This document shows, in pieces, positions 1,459-63,741 of a DNA stretch of 64,000 nucleotides. The stretch lies in contig NC_016488.1 in assembly GCF_000227115.2 (NCBI RefSeq), positions 1-64,000 of the forward strand, given 5' to 3'. The DNA comes from Naumovozyma dairenensis CBS 421 (taxonomy: Eukaryota; Ascomycota; Saccharomycetes; Saccharomycetales; Saccharomycetaceae). The notes beneath the pieces are model-generated. The model saw only the letters and a program-made list of their open reading frames with translations, was not told the origin of the DNA and ran no database searches. Numbering within the stretch: the stretch's first letter is position 1; every line of letters starts with the position of its first letter. Position numbers and translations under genes: made by a program.

Positions 1459-2232
1459 ATGGAATTTGTCACTGTCAATGGATTGAAGTTAAGAAGACCA
1501 TTTTCGGAGTCAAGAATAGAAAAGAAAATTTGGGGGTTCCTTTCAAACTGTTTCTCTATTAGCAGTGCACCGGTTACAAACACAGGTTCCAGAAAACAAG
1601 ACAATTGGATTATATGAACCTACTACTTTTGCTCTGGATGACGACGGTTCGTCAAATTGGATTTTTGAAAAGTATATCATGAAATATTTCTTAATTGATA
1701 AAGGACGTAGCTTCCCTGACACTGTTTTATAGGCACCGTTTTACAAATTAATGTTAAGAGGCGATAACCCCACACTATTTGTCTTAGGTCCAAACCTATT
1801 TAAGGAAAAAGGTTTTTATTCTTGTGATATCGAAGAAGCAGGTAAAGAATTAATGAACAGTAGATACGTGGTTTTAGGTACTGCCCTCAGGCGCTTCCTC
1901 CGCTATGTGCATGAACTCGCTGATGTTCAATATCAAGGCTATTGTTATAAAGGATCCTATAAGATATCTAGCGCCCCAGCAAACCAAATAAGATATTGTA
2001 TTTCACACTCTCTCAATATTCCGACATTCCTCTCCAAGCTATATTTTATGGGTTTTCTAAGGAGGATGCAATAATATACAGGGATTTGTTGATTGTTTAC
2101 AGAATTCGAGCAGTCCGGCGCGGTTATAAACCAACAATGACTAACGTCTTGAATGTGTTTTTCGATCCACCATATGAAATATATGTCATCCCTTCCATGC
2201 ATGGGAGCGATTCCAAGGAAGAATATATCGAA
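1459..2232 (+). pseudogene. Relic of the orphan gene family also found at 32505-33509
   Basis: Translating in three pieces gives a near-continuous match to the intact gene at 32505-33509. The first piece begins at ATG 1459 and has the same M-x6-GL-x-LR opening (MEFVTVNGLKLR against MNSNTSQGLVLR). The frame shifts near 1545. The second piece covers YEPTTF (against DEPNSF) and FVLGPN (against MLVGPD) and has an in-frame TAG at 1730-1732. It shifts again around 1972-1996. The third piece carries the most conserved part, DAIIYRDLLIVYR and FFDPPYEIYV (against DAIIYRDLFVVYR and FLDPPYEIFI). The relic then enters a 126-N gap. A short frame after the gap (about 2360-2410) may be its C-terminus. At least two frameshifts and one stop make it non-functional. 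It sits between two halves of one LTR. Confidence 0.8.
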
Positions 2233-31006: not shown

Positions 31007-31804
31007 TTAAAAGATCAAAGAAAATAATTTGGCCAAAAAATACAAAGCCAAAATAATCCAAAAGACTAAGAAAATGATTAAATTGTTAGCACCGAATTTG
31101 AAAACATACAATTCTTTCAATTGTAACAAATATTGAACGATAACTTTACCAGACAATTTAGACTCACCCTCGGTTCTAACACCAAACGAAAATGGGACTT
31201 CACCAATTGGTTCATTAGCTGGTAATGGTAATTTAGCCAATAAATCCAAAGCAATCTTAAAACCTTCAGGATTAATATCCTTTGCGGCAGGATCCAACAA
31301 ATATTTCTTTTGTAACCCAAAGAACCCACTCATAGGATCAGAAGCAGTAGTCAAAGGTCTAGCCATCAATCTAGCAGTAGAAGAGATAACTCTACGGTAT
31401 AATGGCCAATCTTTATCGATACCTACACCTGGAGCGTATCTTGTACCAAGAACGAATGGATGAGTTTTCAAATTATCGAACATGGCAGGGACACTCTCAG
31501 GAGGATGTTGTAAATCAGCATCCATACAAAGTAAATAATCACCTTCAGCGTCATGGAACCCTCTCATGACAGCAGATGATAGACCACGTTCTTCTGTTCT
31601 GACAATTATTTTGACGTTGTAACCTTGTTTCTGTAGAGTTTCGACTTCTTCAACGGATCCATCTTGAGAGTTGTCATCGACAAAGATCAATTCAGTACTC
31701 TTGGAGGCATCATTGCCTAAGGCTGCGAATAACCTGGTGGTTAAAGGTTTGATGTTTAATTTTTCCTTATAAGCTGGAACAATAACCGAATTAACGATGG
31801 CCAT
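31007..31804 (-). CDS. DPM1: Dolichol-phosphate mannosyltransferase
   Basis: A 265-residue homologue of S. cerevisiae Dpm1 (YPR183W, 267 residues). It makes Dol-P-Man from GDP-Man at the ER membrane for N- and O-glycosylation and GPI anchors. GT2 family with a GT-A fold: N-terminal VIVPAYKEKLNI, FVDDNSQDGS, and the metal-binding DAD motif in LLCMDADLQHPPES (about residue 92). MSGFFGLQKKYL and GVRTEGESKLSGK are also conserved. A C-terminal membrane segment (LIIFLVFWIILALYFLA, about 242-258) makes it the S. cerevisiae type, not the short human type. Last gene of the left syntenic block. Confidence 0.97.
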   Translation of the reverse strand: MAIVNSVIVPAYKEKLNIKPLTTRLFAALGNDASKSTELIFVDDNSQDGSVEEVETLQKQGYNVKIIVRTEERGLSSAVMRGFHDAEGDYLLCMDADLQHPPESVPAMFDNLKTHPFVLGTRYAPGVGIDKDWPLYRRVISSTARLMARPLTTASDPMSGFFGLQKKYLLDPAAKDINPEGFKIALDLLAKLPLPANEPIGEVPFSFGVRTEGESKLSGKVIVQYLLQLKELYVFKFGANNLIIFLVFWIILALYFLAKLFSLIF

Positions 31805-32474
31805 TTCTTCCTTCTTTGTTATTTTAGTATGTTGTTATTTTAAATGGGAATGGTGTCAGAGATCTACGTAGGAACCAGGAAAAATAAACACAAGCATTAA
31901 TATTATTTAAAAGTTGAGAATGTAATTAAATTGTTTCTTTTCATTGTCATTGTTGTTTATTCATTATTCTTGTTCAAACAAAAGCATCTTGAGAGTGAAA
32001 AGATTACGTGTTTTCTTTCCAAGACCCGTGGCCAATATCAAGGGTATATATAAGAACTGCGGCGCGGACACGACCTTGGCACGGATATATGTAATATTCT
32101 TTCCTTTAAACGTGACAGAAATAGAGACTCTTCTTCTTCTGTCGTTGGTCAACGACACATAATCTCATCCCATGCCTATTTTAGGTTTTGCATCAATACA
32201 TCCATCCTATTTTGAGAAGTATGGGTTAACTTTCCAAGTAAGAAGATACTTTCGAGTGAAAGCCACACCCAGGAGTATTAGAGTCAATCGATTGAGAGGT
32301 GTATTGTGTGCTTCAGAGCAGTGCATTACTGATGATTGCTCAAATTAATATATTCGTGTAATCATATTGTTTTTCAATCCACATATTAGATGCTGAATAT
32401 GGGAGAGAGTGGTGTCAGGTCAATTACTGTATTAGCAATATTTTGGATACAGCTTCAACAAAAGCGAACAAGCA
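31805..32474. other. Synteny-breakpoint interval, left side
   Basis: 670 bp between DPM1 and the orphan gene. No conserved gene. AGATGCTGAATA at about 32388-32399 weakly recalls the LTR core (AGAAGCTGAATA) and GGTCAA follows, but the match is too short to call an LTR. Confidence 0.4.
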
Positions 32475-32504
32475 ATGAAAAATAACTACAACTATCAGGA
32501 AAAA

Positions 32505-33509
32505 ATGAACTCAAATACTTCTCAGGGGTTGGTGTTACGTGAAAAGGCAGCTAAGAATATGGTGCTACGCATATATACCCAGTTGAAACGGAAGATACCA
32601 TTTTGCAAAAAACCAGTCAAGTACTGGATTCTTGATGAGCCTAACTCCTTTAAAGTTTGTCCTTACGAGCTAGGTTTCATATTTAAATACGATGTTGTTC
32701 GACACTATTTGAAGTCAAATACTCCGTTTTACAGTAGTGTTTCCAATACAGAATATAAACCACGATTCCCATTTCACAGAAAAAGGTCAAAAATGTATGA
32801 TCCCCAATACTTCCTCAAGAATGGAATTTCTTACAACTGCTACATGCTGGTAGGGCCTGACATGGGCAACAGAACGATTTATTTCTCTACTGCTATTAGT
32901 GAAGATGGAATGCTGGAGTTGAACATATCACTATCCCTCTATAAAATTCCTACCAGTAATTCGGACATCTTCGCCAATTTAAATATACATAATGGAGATT
33001 GGGAACGGTGTAATGATATGCCGCGTTTGGCAGATCTGTTAAACGAGAATGAGGTAGGATTTTTACCACCTTCTGATTTTGCTCCTGTACCTTGCCAAGT
33101 TCTCTTTTATCATTTCCAAGAATCAGACGCCATTATATATCGTGATCTGTTTGTTGTCTACAGAAATAGAGCAATTAAGCGTGGATATATGCCTAATTTT
33201 CCCTCGATATTGGAGGTTTTTCTTGATCCACCATATGAAATATTTATCATGAATGTTGATGACAATGGTAACATTCTACAAGATAAGAAGGAAGAATATA
33301 ACGAAGTTTATCATGACTGTGATGTTACGTGGGCAGAGAGACATTGTTATCAAAAATATTTTGTCTGTAAGGTTAATCAGATGATAGAGGGATCCAGTCG
33401 TTATTTCACTTTGTCCTATTTACAAGATCATTTGGAAAGGAACCCTGTGTTTCATAGAAAGGGTAAGACTGGGTATAAAATTACCACACCATTTCCCGAG
33501 TTTACATAA
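32505..33509 (+). CDS. Intact member of an unrecognised gene family (orphan)
   Basis: An uninterrupted frame, 334 residues from ATG 32505 (344 if ATG 32475 is used). I chose 32505 because the broken paralogue at 1459-2232 begins at the equivalent Met with identical spacing (M-x6-GL-x-LR). No signal peptide, membrane segment or familiar catalytic motif was recognised. It is rich in aromatic and basic residues (YWILDEP, FKYDVVRHYL, RFPFHRKRSK). The best-conserved block between the two copies is DAIIYRDL-(F/L)-VVYR followed by DPPYEI, near residues 210-255. It has no counterpart in the S. cerevisiae YPR region. It lies alone at the point where the two syntenic blocks are joined in inverted order. 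It could be a lineage-specific subtelomeric family, a capsid- or nuclease-derived mobile gene, or something new; function unknown. Confidence 0.8.
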   Translation: MNSNTSQGLVLREKAAKNMVLRIYTQLKRKIPFCKKPVKYWILDEPNSFKVCPYELGFIFKYDVVRHYLKSNTPFYSSVSNTEYKPRFPFHRKRSKMYDPQYFLKNGISYNCYMLVGPDMGNRTIYFSTAISEDGMLELNISLSLYKIPTSNSDIFANLNIHNGDWERCNDMPRLADLLNENEVGFLPPSDFAPVPCQVLFYHFQESDAIIYRDLFVVYRNRAIKRGYMPNFPSILEVFLDPPYEIFIMNVDDNGNILQDKKEEYNEVYHDCDVTWAERHCYQKYFVCKVNQMIEGSSRYFTLSYLQDHLERNPVFHRKGKTGYKITTPFPEFT

Positions 33510-34031
33510 TAGTGGCATATTACTTATATTTATATCTGATAAAAGAAGGTGAATAAAATCCATTTTGGATTTAGAATTGTTCAGACGGGATAAAAATTCA
33601 TTGAGCATATATACGTACATGGTAGATTATATACAGTATGTTCAGTTTGCTATGTATAATGGAAACTTGGATAAGCGTAGTTTGTATACATCTGGATTCA
33701 ACATCTGTCCCACTCGGGTACATTGCAGCAAATTAGGTCACTGGCCTTACTTTAGGGCTAAAAATCTTTAAATGCGCGAACAAGCAAGATGCTAGCGCCG
33801 CCAGAAACATCTGTCATAATGTTGAAAATGAAAAATCATATAGAAGTTGAAATAATCTATTGATTGATATACCTAGAGGTTATCTAAGAATACCATTGTA
33901 GTTAAAGTTGGTTAAGTACGGGAAATAACTCGAACAGCCTCCTGTGCTAATTGGGACTCAATTATTAGTGTCAAGATAGAAACCAATTTGCTAAACATTA
34001 TATCTAATAGAACGATATCTGCTGTCAGATA
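33510..34031. other. Synteny-breakpoint interval, right side
   Basis: 522 bp between the orphan gene and MMS1. Short frames only; no LTR, tRNA or repeat was recognised. Confidence 0.4.
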
Positions 34032-37000
34032 ATGGATGGCTTTCTTGCTGGATCAAACTATGCCATCGAATCGGATGACATATTTACAGAAGCACATATA
34101 AGAAGGAAAAACCATCAATTAAAAATAAAGGAAACTACTGCTCAGTTTGGGGTTGGAACAGAAAACAAGGAGTTGAAGTATTTTGGCATCAATGCAGTTA
34201 ATTTCAAGAAAAATTTATTGGCTTTCAAATATGATCAATCCATTGTGGGTGCTATGCCTAAATATTGCTTCAAATATACTTATGCTGAGCATGGTCATGA
34301 CCCGGACTACTATAGAACCTTGAAAAGGAAGTTAGCTGAAATGCAAAATGGAATTGATTTCGAAGAGGAATTGTATTCTATACTATCAAATAAAGAACTA
34401 AAAGAATTGAATCATGAGGAGAAGGATCCTGAAACCTTAGATGATTCAGATCTGGAAGAATTTGCTAACTCAATGATGCAAGAGGAAGCCTCTCTACGGC
34501 AAGAAAATACTCCAAGGGCAGAAGTACAGGAAAGACCGAAAAATCTAAACCTAAATCTAAAACAAAGCTATATCACTGTTACAGAGAATTCAATTCAAAA
34601 AACCGGGTCATCAAGTTTAATCACTTTCCCATATAGTATTTCAGATTGTCAACCCATCGTACTGAATGAAACTAGTGAAACCTTATTACTAGTTGTGTTA
34701 TCGAATGGTATAATGTATTCGATACTACCAGGTGGACCAGGACAACAAGGTTGTACCATACAATATTGGGTCCTGGAATCAGCATCCAAGAAATGGTCTA
34801 TCATGGTTCATCCAAAAAATGAAAATTTCGTATTGATCGATAAACAAAATGGGAAAAAAGATGGCCTGTGTAAATTTTTTAAATTGAAACCACATAGTAA
34901 ACTTTTTGGTCTAGTTAGTAATTTGTACTTACCTGATTCAGACATTATAGATGCCAATTTCTTCCCGAATGAGTCGAAAAACCATTTCCTGTTATTCATT
35001 GCGCTTGTAAGATACCAAAGGAAGGTACATCTTTGTATTGAATGGACAGACAACGGTGATGTTGATAGGAGAGAAGAAGAGAATAAAAAAAATGTGCATC
35101 AATTGATTTATTTAAATGGAGATATCATTAATGGGTCAATACCAATATCCCATAATAAATGTTTAGCGTATACTTCATCTACTATGTCAATCATCTCTGC
35201 TAACCAAATTATGTCCGGTGAAACATTTTCACAAACTTTAAAGATAAACTGTCTGAGAAATATTAAATCATCATTTTATGCTCCTGAATTATTAACAAAA
35301 TTGCAAACGTTAAACAAACATACTTTTGGCAAATTCCAATTCTGTAGCGTCATCGCCACATCTACGGGAAATATAAGCTTCATGCTTTCCAATGATGCGG
35401 AAGATATTGAATTTTATTCATTGACAAGATTCAAAGGTTTGAAATGGATATGCTCATCAATTGATCAACCCACATCTGAATTGAATTATAACCTTATTAT
35501 TATTAGTTTTGGTAGAACTTTGAAAATAACAGTAAATCTAAATGATATAAAACTTCTACATGAGAAAGCCCCATCAAATATTTCATCGTTATCAGGATTG
35601 GTTACAAAGACAACATTAGCTAGCTCCACCGAGCAAAACACAGGTATCATATCAATTAACCCATCCAAGAATTACAGAAGTGATACATCTGAACTTTGGT
35701 TGACTTCACCTTCCACATTAACTCAACTGAATAATAATTACCCAGCGGCCAAGACTCATTTGTTATGTACCTTATCGATTTTCCAAGAATTTAGTAAGAT
35801 TATACTAGTTGATTTCTCTGAACTGGAACAATCTATTAGATCAAGGATTCTTCTGCGCGATGAGGACGAGGACGATGATGAGAATGCAGATTTTGCGAAT
35901 CATTATTTAATCATTGGTACAAATTATCCATCCATTTCCAAAGCATATGTTTTAAATTTAAGTGCGTCTAAAGTTCCAAAATTGTTTGAATTAGATGATA
36001 TCCTTTGTTGCACAACAGATGAAACGTTACATTTATATTTCACTGAAAATTCAATGGTTCAAATAACACGACACTCTGTGTTTGTGCTACCGTTGTTGTC
36101 TTTCAAGAGCAGTATCGGCGATGACGTTGACGCAAACACTTCAATTAAAGAGTACAAGACCTCATATCTTATTGAGGGCGCCGCATATTGCTCTAACAAA
36201 GTTATCTTATGGTCAGTTAAAAAAAATCGTGTCGAGGTTATTGATGACATTGATAATTTGTGCAATGGAGATAAATATACTGTAAAAAATGAACCTAACA
36301 TGGAACTGCTTTTGAAACAATTGCGTAATGAATTTGTAAATATTCACCTATTCAATGGCTTACCAAACGATATTAATGGAGGTTCTTGTAATGGTGGATT
36401 TTATGTTCTTTTCTTTTATGGGAAGATCGTAAAGGTGTTTAAATGGGATGTCTTCAATACAATATTTCAAGAATTTGAATTACCTTGTAAAATGGTAGTT
36501 GCTAGCGATTGTATTAAGTTCGAACAATATTTCGTTTCACTTTTAAATGGTTCTGAAATGATTAACCCTTGTTCCCAATCAAAACATGTCTTACCATTAT
36601 TATCATGTAATTTCAATACAGACGTTGAATTAAGGAAGATATCAGACAAGTATAAATTTCTCATATTTTCCACGAACGAGATACATTTATGTGATCTTAA
36701 ATCTCCAACACCCCATAGTGAGTTGAAAATTCCAATGACGAATGGTAATAGTACTATTACTAATAATAAGTGCAATCCAATATTAGACGTTCAGACTATA
36801 ATAAACGACAATAACAGCCCTTTTTTCATTTTAAGATCTGATGGGTTACAAATTGTTAAATTATCATACAACACATGGAATTATTCCAATTATTTACTAA
36901 AATCTACTAGAAATGTGAATAAGACATTTTTTTTCTTGGATAAAATTAACAGAATGTTAGTTATTAATCGAGATTCATACGAATGGGATTGTATTAAATT

Positions 37001-38300
37001 GACGAATGGTAAGATATTAAGTTTGAACTCTTCCATTTTACGAGATGTTGACAATGAATCTGCATTGTTGGGTGCTACTGAAGTACGAACAGCGAGGAAA
37101 GATGAAGTACTTATATTGCTAAATTATGATTCGATGATAAAATTGATTAAATTATTACCGCAGAAGGGGAATTTATTAACGAAGGAGGTTTGCATTTACA
37201 AATTTCAAAATAGAATTCTCGGCCAAGTTTTGGTTAATAATGAAAAGGGAGAATGTTATGTTTTATCAATTGGTGATACTGGGAATAACTCATCTAATTC
37301 ATCCAATTCTGATTCTGATTCTTACCGTGATTCACGGAAGTTAGATGCATTTATAAAATTGAAAATATCTGATGATAAAATCATACCTTTGAGTGAATTA
37401 CGTTTTAATGGTAAGGGTCAAATAATTCAGTTTGAAGTTTGTGATGATAATATAATTATGAGTACTACCAAAGCTGAGGATGTTTACGTTCTCAAAGATT
37501 ATTCAAAACAAGCGCTGGATGGTGAACCAAAATTATTGAAATTGAATACTGGATCTGGTAAAATTGGACGTATAAAAGTTCTTGATGATCATTGTTTTCT
37601 TGTTATTGTCCATAAAGAAGGTGAAACCAATTGTATATCATCCATGTTGTTTTATAAGAAGGATTCTATACAGCCGTGTGTTGTTGAAAACGAGGAATCA
37701 TATATTGAAGGCCGGTTATTAGGTAATGATGATGATGATGACGATATGCATATTTCTATTTTCGATAAGGCTTCTACATTGGCTACAGGTAAAGAATTAG
37801 AAAATAGAATCTTTTCAAGTATTGATGCTATAATACATACTATTGAATATAATGTAGAAGGTCTACGGGGATTCTGGAATTCTAGAGCGGAAATAGAGAA
37901 GGATGATGAATTAGGAAATTATAAGAATGATGGAGAAGAGGAAGAAAAAGAAGTGGACGAATATAGGCAGCATAAGAAGGAAGTGGAATTAGAATTACCA
38001 AAACTTCGATCGCCATACCAGACTATACGGCTTGATAAAATTCCAGTAGATATTACATATAATCGGGAGACTGGTGTATTATACTGTCTTTGTTCAGACC
38101 AAACTGTTCTAAAGTTTGTTCCTCCTTCTTTAGAAGGTTATAAATCAAGAACTAAATTACGAAGCTTTTCAGATATGAATAATTTTGGTTATAAACTTAC
38201 AGAAACCGGAATATGGGAAGCAGAGGAAACCTTTGGATCTCCCATTACGGGAATTGTGAAGTCAGATTTCCAAGAAAGCAGCAAAGAGTGTATACACTGA
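34032..38300 (+). CDS. MMS1: DDB1-like subunit of the Rtt101 ubiquitin ligase
   Basis: A 1422-residue homologue of S. cerevisiae Mms1 (YPR164W, 1407 residues), the Rtt101 cullin adaptor that acts in replication-fork repair and histone H3K56ac handling. The protein is divergent, so the call rests on N-terminal landmarks (SIVGAMPKYCF, DPETLDDSDLEE), length, beta-propeller-like character throughout (repeated short beta-rich blocks, for example LLLVVLSNGIMYSI), a C-terminal tail after an acidic linker (GEEEEKEVDEYR) and, decisively, position directly upstream of RHO1 in the same orientation as in S. cerevisiae. First gene of the right block. Confidence 0.88.
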   Translation: MDGFLAGSNYAIESDDIFTEAHIRRKNHQLKIKETTAQFGVGTENKELKYFGINAVNFKKNLLAFKYDQSIVGAMPKYCFKYTYAEHGHDPDYYRTLKRKLAEMQNGIDFEEELYSILSNKELKELNHEEKDPETLDDSDLEEFANSMMQEEASLRQENTPRAEVQERPKNLNLNLKQSYITVTENSIQKTGSSSLITFPYSISDCQPIVLNETSETLLLVVLSNGIMYSILPGGPGQQGCTIQYWVLESASKKWSIMVHPKNENFVLIDKQNGKKDGLCKFFKLKPHSKLFGLVSNLYLPDSDIIDANFFPNESKNHFLLFIALVRYQRKVHLCIEWTDNGDVDRREEENKKNVHQLIYLNGDIINGSIPISHNKCLAYTSSTMSIISANQIMSGETFSQTLKINCLRNIKSSFYAPELLTKLQTLNKHTFGKFQFCSVIATSTGNISFMLSNDAEDIEFYSLTRFKGLKWICSSIDQPTSELNYNLIIISFGRTLKITVNLNDIKLLHEKAPSNISSLSGLVTKTTLASSTEQNTGIISINPSKNYRSDTSELWLTSPSTLTQLNNNYPAAKTHLLCTLSIFQEFSKIILVDFSELEQSIRSRILLRDEDEDDDENADFANHYLIIGTNYPSISKAYVLNLSASKVPKLFELDDILCCTTDETLHLYFTENSMVQITRHSVFVLPLLSFKSSIGDDVDANTSIKEYKTSYLIEGAAYCSNKVILWSVKKNRVEVIDDIDNLCNGDKYTVKNEPNMELLLKQLRNEFVNIHLFNGLPNDINGGSCNGGFYVLFFYGKIVKVFKWDVFNTIFQEFELPCKMVVASDCIKFEQYFVSLLNGSEMINPCSQSKHVLPLLSCNFNTDVELRKISDKYKFLIFSTNEIHLCDLKSPTPHSELKIPMTNGNSTITNNKCNPILDVQTIINDNNSPFFILRSDGLQIVKLSYNTWNYSNYLLKSTRNVNKTFFFLDKINRMLVINRDSYEWDCIKLTNGKILSLNSSILRDVDNESALLGATEVRTARKDEVLILLNYDSMIKLIKLLPQKGNLLTKEVCIYKFQNRILGQVLVNNEKGECYVLSIGDTGNNSSNSSNSDSDSYRDSRKLDAFIKLKISDDKIIPLSELRFNGKGQIIQFEVCDDNIIMSTTKAEDVYVLKDYSKQALDGEPKLLKLNTGSGKIGRIKVLDDHCFLVIVHKEGETNCISSMLFYKKDSIQPCVVENEESYIEGRLLGNDDDDDDMHISIFDKASTLATGKELENRIFSSIDAIIHTIEYNVEGLRGFWNSRAEIEKDDELGNYKNDGEEEEKEVDEYRQHKKEVELELPKLRSPYQTIRLDKIPVDITYNRETGVLYCLCSDQTVLKFVPPSLEGYKSRTKLRSFSDMNNFGYKLTETGIWEAEETFGSPITGIVKSDFQESSKECIH

Positions 38301-62556: not shown

Positions 62557-63741
62557 ATGGTAATGCCCGTTAAGGAAAGTCATATAGTGCTTGGCTGCTT
62601 TGTGAGCCGGTTGTTAGTCTCATTCGTATTCCCATCATTACAACATCAATTGGATCAATCTGTGGAATTCTCCACTCCAATGACATCTTTTAAATCTATC
62701 CAAGAGGGTATATACATGTTTACAAAGGGACTGCCGACTTATAATGGCGGTGTGGTGCATCATTCACCAATATTAATATGGATGTTGTCCATATTACCAT
62801 CTCAACTGTTTATCACCGTATTATATGCGGCAATAGACGCATATATTGCATTCCAAATACTACAAATCTCTAAACACTTGAAATATTGCAATTTACCAAA
62901 TTACATCTTCGGTATTTTGTACGTTTTGAATCCACTCGTATTATTATCATGTGTGAGTAAATCATCTATTATCTTCACAAATGTACTCATAACAACCGCT
63001 CTATTACATGTTCTACAAGGAAATATCGTCTTCGCTTCGATGGCCATTGCAGCAGCCGGTTATTTGTCATTATATCCCATCTTATTGTTAGTACCATTAT
63101 TAGGAATGATTGCTTCATGGAAACGGAAAATACTATCAATAATTACCACCATAATAACTTTACAAATCTTATTGTTCATTAGTTATGAAATCAATGGTAG
63201 TTCATGGGACTTTATAGACTCTACATATGGGAAAATTTTGACATTTAGTAAAGTATTCCCCAATATTGGATTATGGTGGTATTTCTTCGTCGAAATGTTT
63301 GATGAATTTATCCCATTTTTCAAAAGTGTGTTCAATTTAATCGTATTGGTTTTCATTGTCCCATTTACAATAAGATTCAACCAACAACCATTATTTGCAT
63401 TCATTCTATGTCTCGGTTGGATTATCTTAACTAAGCCATATCCAACTCTAGGTGATGCTGGATTTTTCTTGAGTTTATTACCATTTTTCAATTCAATTTT
63501 TGGTTACTTGAGATATCCACTCTTGTCTACATTATTAATTCTTCATGCAGTTATATTATCACCAATTTTCTATCATTTATGGATAGATCTAGGTTCAGGG
63601 AACAGTAATTTCTTTTATGCTATAACATTGGTGTATGCTTTGGGTATCGCCTCCATTATCGCAGATTTAACTTGGGCAATGTTAAGAAATGAATATGATG
63701 AGGGAAAACCAAATTATAACGTTAAAGTGACTCAAATATAG
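62557..63741 (+). CDS. GAB1: GPI transamidase subunit Gab1 (PIG-U)
   Basis: A 394-residue homologue of S. cerevisiae Gab1 (YLR459W, 394 residues), a multi-spanning ER membrane subunit of the transamidase that attaches GPI anchors. ATG 62557 is used (MVMPVKESH); the frame is open 17 codons further upstream without an ATG. About eight hydrophobic segments, with conserved VEFSTPMTSFKSIQEGIYM, YNGGVVHHSPILIWM, YVLNPLVLLSC and SLYPILLLVPLLGM. In S. cerevisiae it lies beside NBP1 on chromosome XII, the WGD partner of the region here, so its position beside SEC23 is consistent with an ancestral arrangement. Confidence 0.93.
   Translation: MVMPVKESHIVLGCFVSRLLVSFVFPSLQHQLDQSVEFSTPMTSFKSIQEGIYMFTKGLPTYNGGVVHHSPILIWMLSILPSQLFITVLYAAIDAYIAFQILQISKHLKYCNLPNYIFGILYVLNPLVLLSCVSKSSIIFTNVLITTALLHVLQGNIVFASMAIAAAGYLSLYPILLLVPLLGMIASWKRKILSIITTIITLQILLFISYEINGSSWDFIDSTYGKILTFSKVFPNIGLWWYFFVEMFDEFIPFFKSVFNLIVLVFIVPFTIRFNQQPLFAFILCLGWIILTKPYPTLGDAGFFLSLLPFFNSIFGYLRYPLLSTLLILHAVILSPIFYHLWIDLGSGNSNFFYAITLVYALGIASIIADLTWAMLRNEYDEGKPNYNVKVTQI

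Follow-up and report, generated by a model that had tools for sequence, protein, structure and literature searches.

An orphan gene of Naumovozyma dairenensis lies in closely similar, mirror-image copies at the two ends of an inversion, judged against the Saccharomyces cerevisiae gene order taken as reference. One copy (A) is in the window, which covers the initial 64 kb of contig C10; its counterpart (C) lies just beyond the window. A third copy (B), elsewhere on the contig, sits in a circularly permuted version of the sequence around C. We consider it probable that recombination at the family gene made the inversion, that gene conversion kept A, B and C alike, and that B arose later through a circle derived from the SMX3–ORC4 interval. 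The comparison base was one genome of one strain (CBS 421).

Copy A and the inversion between DPM1 and ORC4

Copy A is an open, clean frame at 32505–33509; the single opposite-strand frame that we read contained many stops. Both of the closest copies have ACG in place of the ATG at 32505, and keep an upstream ATG at 32475. We therefore prefer the model 32475–33509 (+), and the product is probably 344 aa long. The preliminary description gave a clean gene of 334 codons starting at 32505; the clean frame stands, and the start and length change to 32475 and 344 codons.

The product had no significant Pfam or PDB match, and the other members had none in Pfam, in agreement with the preliminary statement that no domain is recognisable. 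A fold search with two predicted structures of moderate confidence only (pTM 0.74 and 0.67; mean pLDDT 65 and 60) returned no fold match. Searching protein databases with the 334-aa form gave nine hits by single sequence and the same nine by profile, eight named as N. dairenensis and one being the window's own. As this search admits only proteins of 0.55–1.75 times the query length and has word limits too, it is within these limits that no significant match outside N. dairenensis was found. The PSI-BLAST, AlphaFold and Foldseek type of check proposed earlier led to no known family. Pattern searches for viral or prokaryotic relatives gave 70 and 16 matches, none of which was confirmed. Among the papers covered, none contains any of the six NDAI names searched or NDAI_0J00140 (our guess at the name of copy A), and the available parts of PMC3141009 and PMC7028367 contain nothing on the copy A locus.

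Upstream of copy A, at 32265–32271 of the window, lies ACACCCA, which we take to be a Rap1-like site; B has it in the same place. Among 14 upstream regions the motif occurred in two, where 0.4 would be expected; as the sequence around it is near-identical in A and B, the two count as a single observation.

The preliminary description placed copy A alone between DPM1 and MMS1, and this holds. To its left is DPM1 (31007–31804, −), whose product matches dolichol-phosphate mannose synthase and which is the last gene before the inverted block. To its right is a large gene (34032–38300, +) that we take to be MMS1; it had no Pfam or PDB hit. From this first gene the block (+) fills the window from 34032 to 64000. 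Near its far end lies GAB1 (PIG-U; 62557–63741, +), and SMX3, identified by an LSM match, follows past the window end (C10:64252–64446, +). The order from the contig end is QCR2..GDB1(−), DPM1(−), A(+), MMS1(+), RHO1(+) ... SEC23(−), GAB1(+), SMX3(+), C(−), ORC4(+). Family-level Pfam/PDB support was obtained for RHO1, VPS4, DPB2, BET2, PRP4, AOS1, SEC23, GAB1, GDB1, SMX3, ORC4 and DPM1; the other gene names in this stretch of C10, MMS1 included, were assigned from the translations and are putative.

We take SMX3 (YPR182W) to lie beside DPM1 (YPR183W) in S. cerevisiae, and MMS1 (YPR164W) to lie two genes from ORC4 (YPR162C). Against this reference order, MMS1..SMX3 is one inversion of ~30 kb and 17 genes, and the outer genes keep their orientation. 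The synteny breakpoint noted at copy A is accordingly real, and is one end of the inversion. The second end is at C10:64.5–71.1 kb, just beyond the window. Here, between SMX3 and ORC4, copy C (C10:68.7–69.6 kb, −) forms a mirror image of A, with 97% DNA identity to it over 460 and 744 bp in opposite orientation. This counterpart had been missed in the preliminary description. In principle, the flip could have occurred in the S. cerevisiae lineage instead.

The gene content also differs somewhat from the reference. The ORFs listed for this part of C10 did not include TIF3 or NUT2 (presumably YPR163C and YPR168W), and GAB1 (presumably YLR459W in S. cerevisiae) is extra between SEC23 and SMX3. 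Both features may reflect sorting after genome duplication.

Sequence exchange and the permuted copy B

A, C (in opposite orientation) and B have in common a 1.36-kb segment at 32187–33544 (+) of the window. Identity is 95.6–97% over 32251–33544, and 32187–32250 aligns with several gaps. The 3′ homology end of A is sharp, and A's flanks outside 32187–33544 gave no other match. Across the three copies, 69 informative sites fell into 25 runs, compared with 38.6 in shuffles, and none of 20,000 shuffles gave so low a count. Because the differences clump into fewer runs than in shuffles, tracts have been exchanged among A, B and C, which indicates gene conversion. B and C are about 95% identical as far as C10:168.6 kb and about 75% identical past it; the drop occurs from one 100-base window to the next, immediately ahead of the partner gene described below. 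Copy C contains a 20-N run (C10:69420–69439) that is an assembly gap. As its frameshifts adjoin this gap, calling C broken would be unsafe, and the A/B/C comparison rests partly on weak sequence at C.

The 97% identity suggested a recent inversion, a reading we rejected on the evidence of conversion. Outside the converted tracts (the first 100 bp of the piece called up, the SMX3 piece and the piece called down), B and C differ by ~12–16%, and dS between their partner genes is 0.84.

The genes on either side of copy B are CDC37 and TAF10, which we take to be neighbours in S. cerevisiae. Read in gene direction, the order at C is up, gene, partner, down, R1, 964 bp and SMX3, whereas the order at B is R1, a piece of SMX3 exon 2, up, gene, partner and down. 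B is thus a circular permutation of the SMX3–ORC4 interval at C. At C its two ends meet, 12 bp having been lost where the interval was opened, and the junction from SMX3 to up, found in B only, is sharp, with ~2 bp of common sequence by eye. The 964 bp, bounded by GCTATA at C, are absent from B. The insert in B is flanked by TATCAAACAGTACATGC and TATCAAAAACTACATGC, a direct repeat matching at 15 of 17 positions. When 20,000 random pairs were drawn from the two loci and those near-overlapping or bearing N were dropped, one of the remaining 19,648 scored as high. Dispersed repeats would have made the permutation meaningless, and we rejected R1 and R2 as such: R1 was found at the B and C loci only, and R2 is SMX3.

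At C, SMX3 looks whole, with a short first exon, an intron and a second exon, and adjoins GAB1 and SEC23. The piece in B (C10:165731–166030) carries stops and lacks exon 1; this pseudogene begins almost exactly at the intron 3′ splice site. As SMX3 is whole at C and stop-bearing without exon 1 in B, the transfer ran from C to B. B holds both the ORC4 side and the SMX3 side of C, and so it should post-date the inversion. Identity between B and C varies by piece: 98% for R1, 97% for up, 95% for the gene and spacer, 85% for SMX3, 84% for down and 73% for the partner. Since the pieces differ in divergence, either multiple events or extensive conversion must be assumed. The permuted order, the SMX3 fragment, the sharp junctions and the flanking direct repeat are together what insertion by way of a circle would leave, the circle itself being what we infer. 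B was the one insertion that could be reconstructed.

The family across the genome and its partner gene

Instead of the two family copies of the preliminary picture, the genome holds about 26 loci (30 matches in a search of the genome, merged by hand). Codon analysis used 13 of them, 12 with an open frame of 315–377 aa and one of 241 aa. The other 13 are copy C with its assembly gap, a locus at C3:593 kb whose open C-terminal part of 257 aa adjoins a long N stretch, and fragments or stop-bearing copies. In a tree of 14 rows, A, B, D and E grouped with support of 100/100, seven copies formed a mainly subtelomeric branch (87/90), and three outliers sat on long branches. An intact member of 329 codons at C4:872107–872829 (L025 4509–5498) was absent among the database proteins found and is possibly unannotated.

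The family is concentrated near contig ends. Ten of the 26 loci lie within 20 kb of an end against 0.85 expected, with neighbouring and terminal copies not independent of one another, and 19 lie within 125 kb against 5.3 expected, again with copies that are not independent events. The family is fast-evolving and mostly subtelomeric, and is so far found in N. dairenensis alone. The suggestion of a fast-evolving subtelomeric family is therefore borne out. It resembles the yeast subtelomeric families COS and MAL, named in PMC9731477, in being multi-copy and near chromosome ends; no match to any named family was significant by sequence. The broken paralogue reported near the contig end is also real. 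The genome match covers C10:1984–2232 at 48% identity, and an overlapping ORF of 107 aa at 1751–2074 reads like the family, so that the feature spans 1751–2232 (+). Subtelomere-type copies at C2:101732, 115897 and 121876 and at C4:94–96 kb have kilobases of flank in common. They lie ~95–120 kb inside their contigs, perhaps at former chromosome ends or within large terminal additions.

Pairwise dN/dS was 0.46 for A–B, 0.22 for A–D and 0.20 for A–E, and 0.21–0.42 among the seven mainly subtelomeric copies; for many pairs further apart, dS was saturated and no ratio could be taken. With values below 1 wherever a ratio was obtained, family members look like constrained proteins; this is the outcome, for intact copies, of the dN/dS comparison proposed at the outset. 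The DAIIYRDL and DPPYEI blocks, said earlier to be kept, are largely so: A209, I210, Y212, R213, D214 and D241–I246 are invariant in an alignment of 10 rows (nine distinct proteins). The blocks have drifted in two outlying copies, to ETYRELL/NPPYEI and ILIRNLF/NPPFDI.

At B, C and D, a partner gene lies downstream of the family gene in the same direction, broken at D. At B it is NDAI_0J00780 (C10:168679–169740; L010 6179–7243; 354 aa), and at C it is NDAI_0J00390 (C10:67072–68049, −; L011 2766–3752; 328 aa). The product has two hydrophobic segments by eye. A database search gave two significant hits, both from N. dairenensis, and the other eight matches listed had E values of at least 0.2. The partner family has 11 matches in its own genome, including matches near two more family loci, C3:1463 kb (opposite direction) and C3:10.6 kb, and remnants at C10:81–82 kb and C7:1515 kb. 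No partner match was found beside A, and likewise none at most other family loci. Between B and C, partner dN is 0.24 and dS is 0.84, a divergence far above that of the sequence just before the gene (~5%).

Our best but doubtful guess is that the family protein is a rapidly evolving factor without enzymatic activity, of cell-surface or sporulation type, which in some copies would act next to a partner with two transmembrane segments. The mid-sporulation element CRCAAAW occurred in five of 14 upstream regions (12 family, two partner) against 3.6 expected, and a stricter form of the element in two of 14 against 2.9. As the element is not in excess, a sporulation role lacks promoter support.

Seven loci lie more than 125 kb from a contig end, and five of these are between genes that, in the reference order, are neighbours or near-neighbours in S. 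cerevisiae: CDC37/TAF10, HOC1/CDC11, DAK1/COG8, SGD1/VRP1 (separated by an ERV1-like ORF) and PIB2/PGD1 (separated by another gene). The other two of the seven are at C11:554 kb and C6:749 kb. Because five of the seven sit between such near-neighbours, the family reaches ordinary intergenic DNA and has no general tie to breakpoints, the inversion being a special case.

Origin of the rearrangements and known parallels

In the explanation that we favour, the inversion would have come about through recombination at the family gene, either by a crossover between two inverted copies or by a staggered break that duplicated one copy. A simple crossover between two complete units would not predict that A lacks the partner and that its homology with C is short, only 1.36 kb. 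Staggered breaks are the explanation given for inverted duplications at Drosophila inversion breakpoints. Here, a single unit (gene plus partner) between DPM1 and SMX3 would have been cut by offset single-strand breaks on the two sides of the gene, which duplicated the gene alone to both ends as the block flipped, a form of the favoured explanation that needs no prior second copy. A holds the gene with about 290 bp before it and 35 bp after it while C holds gene plus partner, and both the sharp 3′ end of A's homology and the lack of any other match to A's upstream sequence agree with such breaks. However, the 5′ homology end (32187–32250) is gapped rather than sharp, and unequal loss after a crossover yields the same picture; we regard the staggered form as possible but on balance unlikely. 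It would be more improbable still that the inversion arose first by another route and that family copies later landed in, or were copied to, both broken intergenic regions. The family does reach ordinary intergenic sites without rearrangement, on the reference order, but two independent, near-identical arrivals in opposite orientation at the same inversion would be a coincidence.

If the family were a selfish gene pair, or an element mobile by itself, that settles in intergenic DNA and causes breaks, the inversion would be a side effect. This would account for the number of loci, many of them broken, for the interior copies between conserved neighbours, for B as an insertion with a 17-bp flanking repeat, and for the partner membrane-protein gene beside B, C and D with matches near two more loci. 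Yet the homology ends vary from copy to copy: those of A lie at 32187/33544, those of B at R1 and on the distal side of the partner gene, and the B ends fall in sequence that is contiguous at C. The B insertion stops at a site with no relation to the gene and carries part of SMX3, and the circle reconstructed for it looks accidental. In this end-to-end comparison, which covers A, B and C only, neither the terminal repeats nor the constant ends of a transposable element were seen. Pfam revealed no recombinase, transposase or reverse transcriptase domain, and models of moderate confidence gave no fold match. In addition, A and most loci have no partner match, and dN/dS is below 1 in the pairs giving a ratio. 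We therefore see little chance that the element is self-mobile. Of the mobile or break-associated element proposed in the preliminary description, the position exactly at a rearrangement junction stands, and self-mobility with fixed ends is not supported. The family looks lineage-restricted, with copies that acted as recombination substrates rather than as a transposon with fixed ends.

For the later steps of the favoured explanation, gene conversion after the inversion would have kept A, C and B alike. The SMX3–ORC4 interval would have been copied into a circle after the inversion. A single event, in which this circle was opened inside the 12 bp and joined into a staggered cut between CDC37 and TAF10, would explain the order, junctions and flanking repeat of B. 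Later loss of the 964 bp plus conversion would account for the remainder, including the uneven identity. Alternatively, the interval might briefly have been duplicated in tandem and part of the array copied to CDC37–TAF10. Such an array, read from a different start, should give the identical permuted order; but C retains no tandem remnant and an extra step is required, and we think this route unlikely.

The inversion closely parallels the flip/flop of S. cerevisiae chromosome XIV, by analogy with what the available part of PMC9731477 describes. There, a 24-kb block of 15 genes near the centromere lies between 4.2-kb inverted repeats, each holding the fast-evolving, domainless Centroid gene plus a gene for a two-transmembrane protein. 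The repeats are homogenised by conversion, and occasional crossovers invert the block, recurrently and polymorphically (PMC9731477). Centroid is restricted to Saccharomycetaceae, and a test of meiotic drive gave no support (PMC9731477). The N. dairenensis block is likewise bounded by inverted, fast-evolving, domainless genes under conversion, with a neighbour gene of two-transmembrane type. It differs in spanning 30 kb between 1.36-kb repeats, in having the partner at one end only, in belonging to a family mostly near chromosome ends rather than near a centromere, and in being known from one strain, whereas flip/flop is polymorphic (PMC9731477). The likeness is one of anatomy, with a protein of 612 aa in Centroid (PMC9731477) and of 344 aa in the N. 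dairenensis family. Membership of Centroid would further call for a place within about 60 kb of a centromere and for sporulation-specific expression. No hit outside N. dairenensis was seen, but Centroid (YNL018C/YNL034W), at 612 aa, falls outside the length range of the search with a 334-aa query. A term search of the main text of PMC9731477, as available, found neither 'dairenensis' nor 'Naumovozyma'. We consider it very improbable that gene and partner are a selfish or drive-like pair spreading by circles while conversion keeps flipping the block, making this a second, independent and polymorphic flip/flop.

For B, the closest likeness is the 17-kb region B of Zygosaccharomyces bailii, which spread in wine yeasts by extrachromosomal circles, according to the accessible part of PMC3053389. 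Its copies are circularly permuted, with 2–3 bases of microhomology at four of six insertions, and the segment is foreign, has a functional replication origin and occurs in up to four copies per strain (PMC3053389). Copy B has a circularly permuted order and a junction with ~2 bp of homology, as in region B; unlike region B (PMC3053389), the permuted interval is native, has one such copy and is flanked by an imperfect 17-bp repeat. The sequence in opposite orientation at both inversion ends resembles the inverted duplications of Drosophila, as far as the parts available of PMC7584159 and PMC5080602 describe them.

If these readings are correct, yeasts would have bracketed a conserved block at least twice by a mirror-image, fast-evolving, domainless, lineage-restricted gene homogenised by conversion, and what was a curiosity of Saccharomyces chromosome XIV would become a pattern. 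One could then ask if genes of this kind draw inversions to them or just persist where inversions have occurred. In copy B one would have a naturally occurring case of circle-borne transfer of a native interval in which the donor, the insertion site and the junctions can all be seen. The orphan family appears to be a source of chromosome rearrangement.
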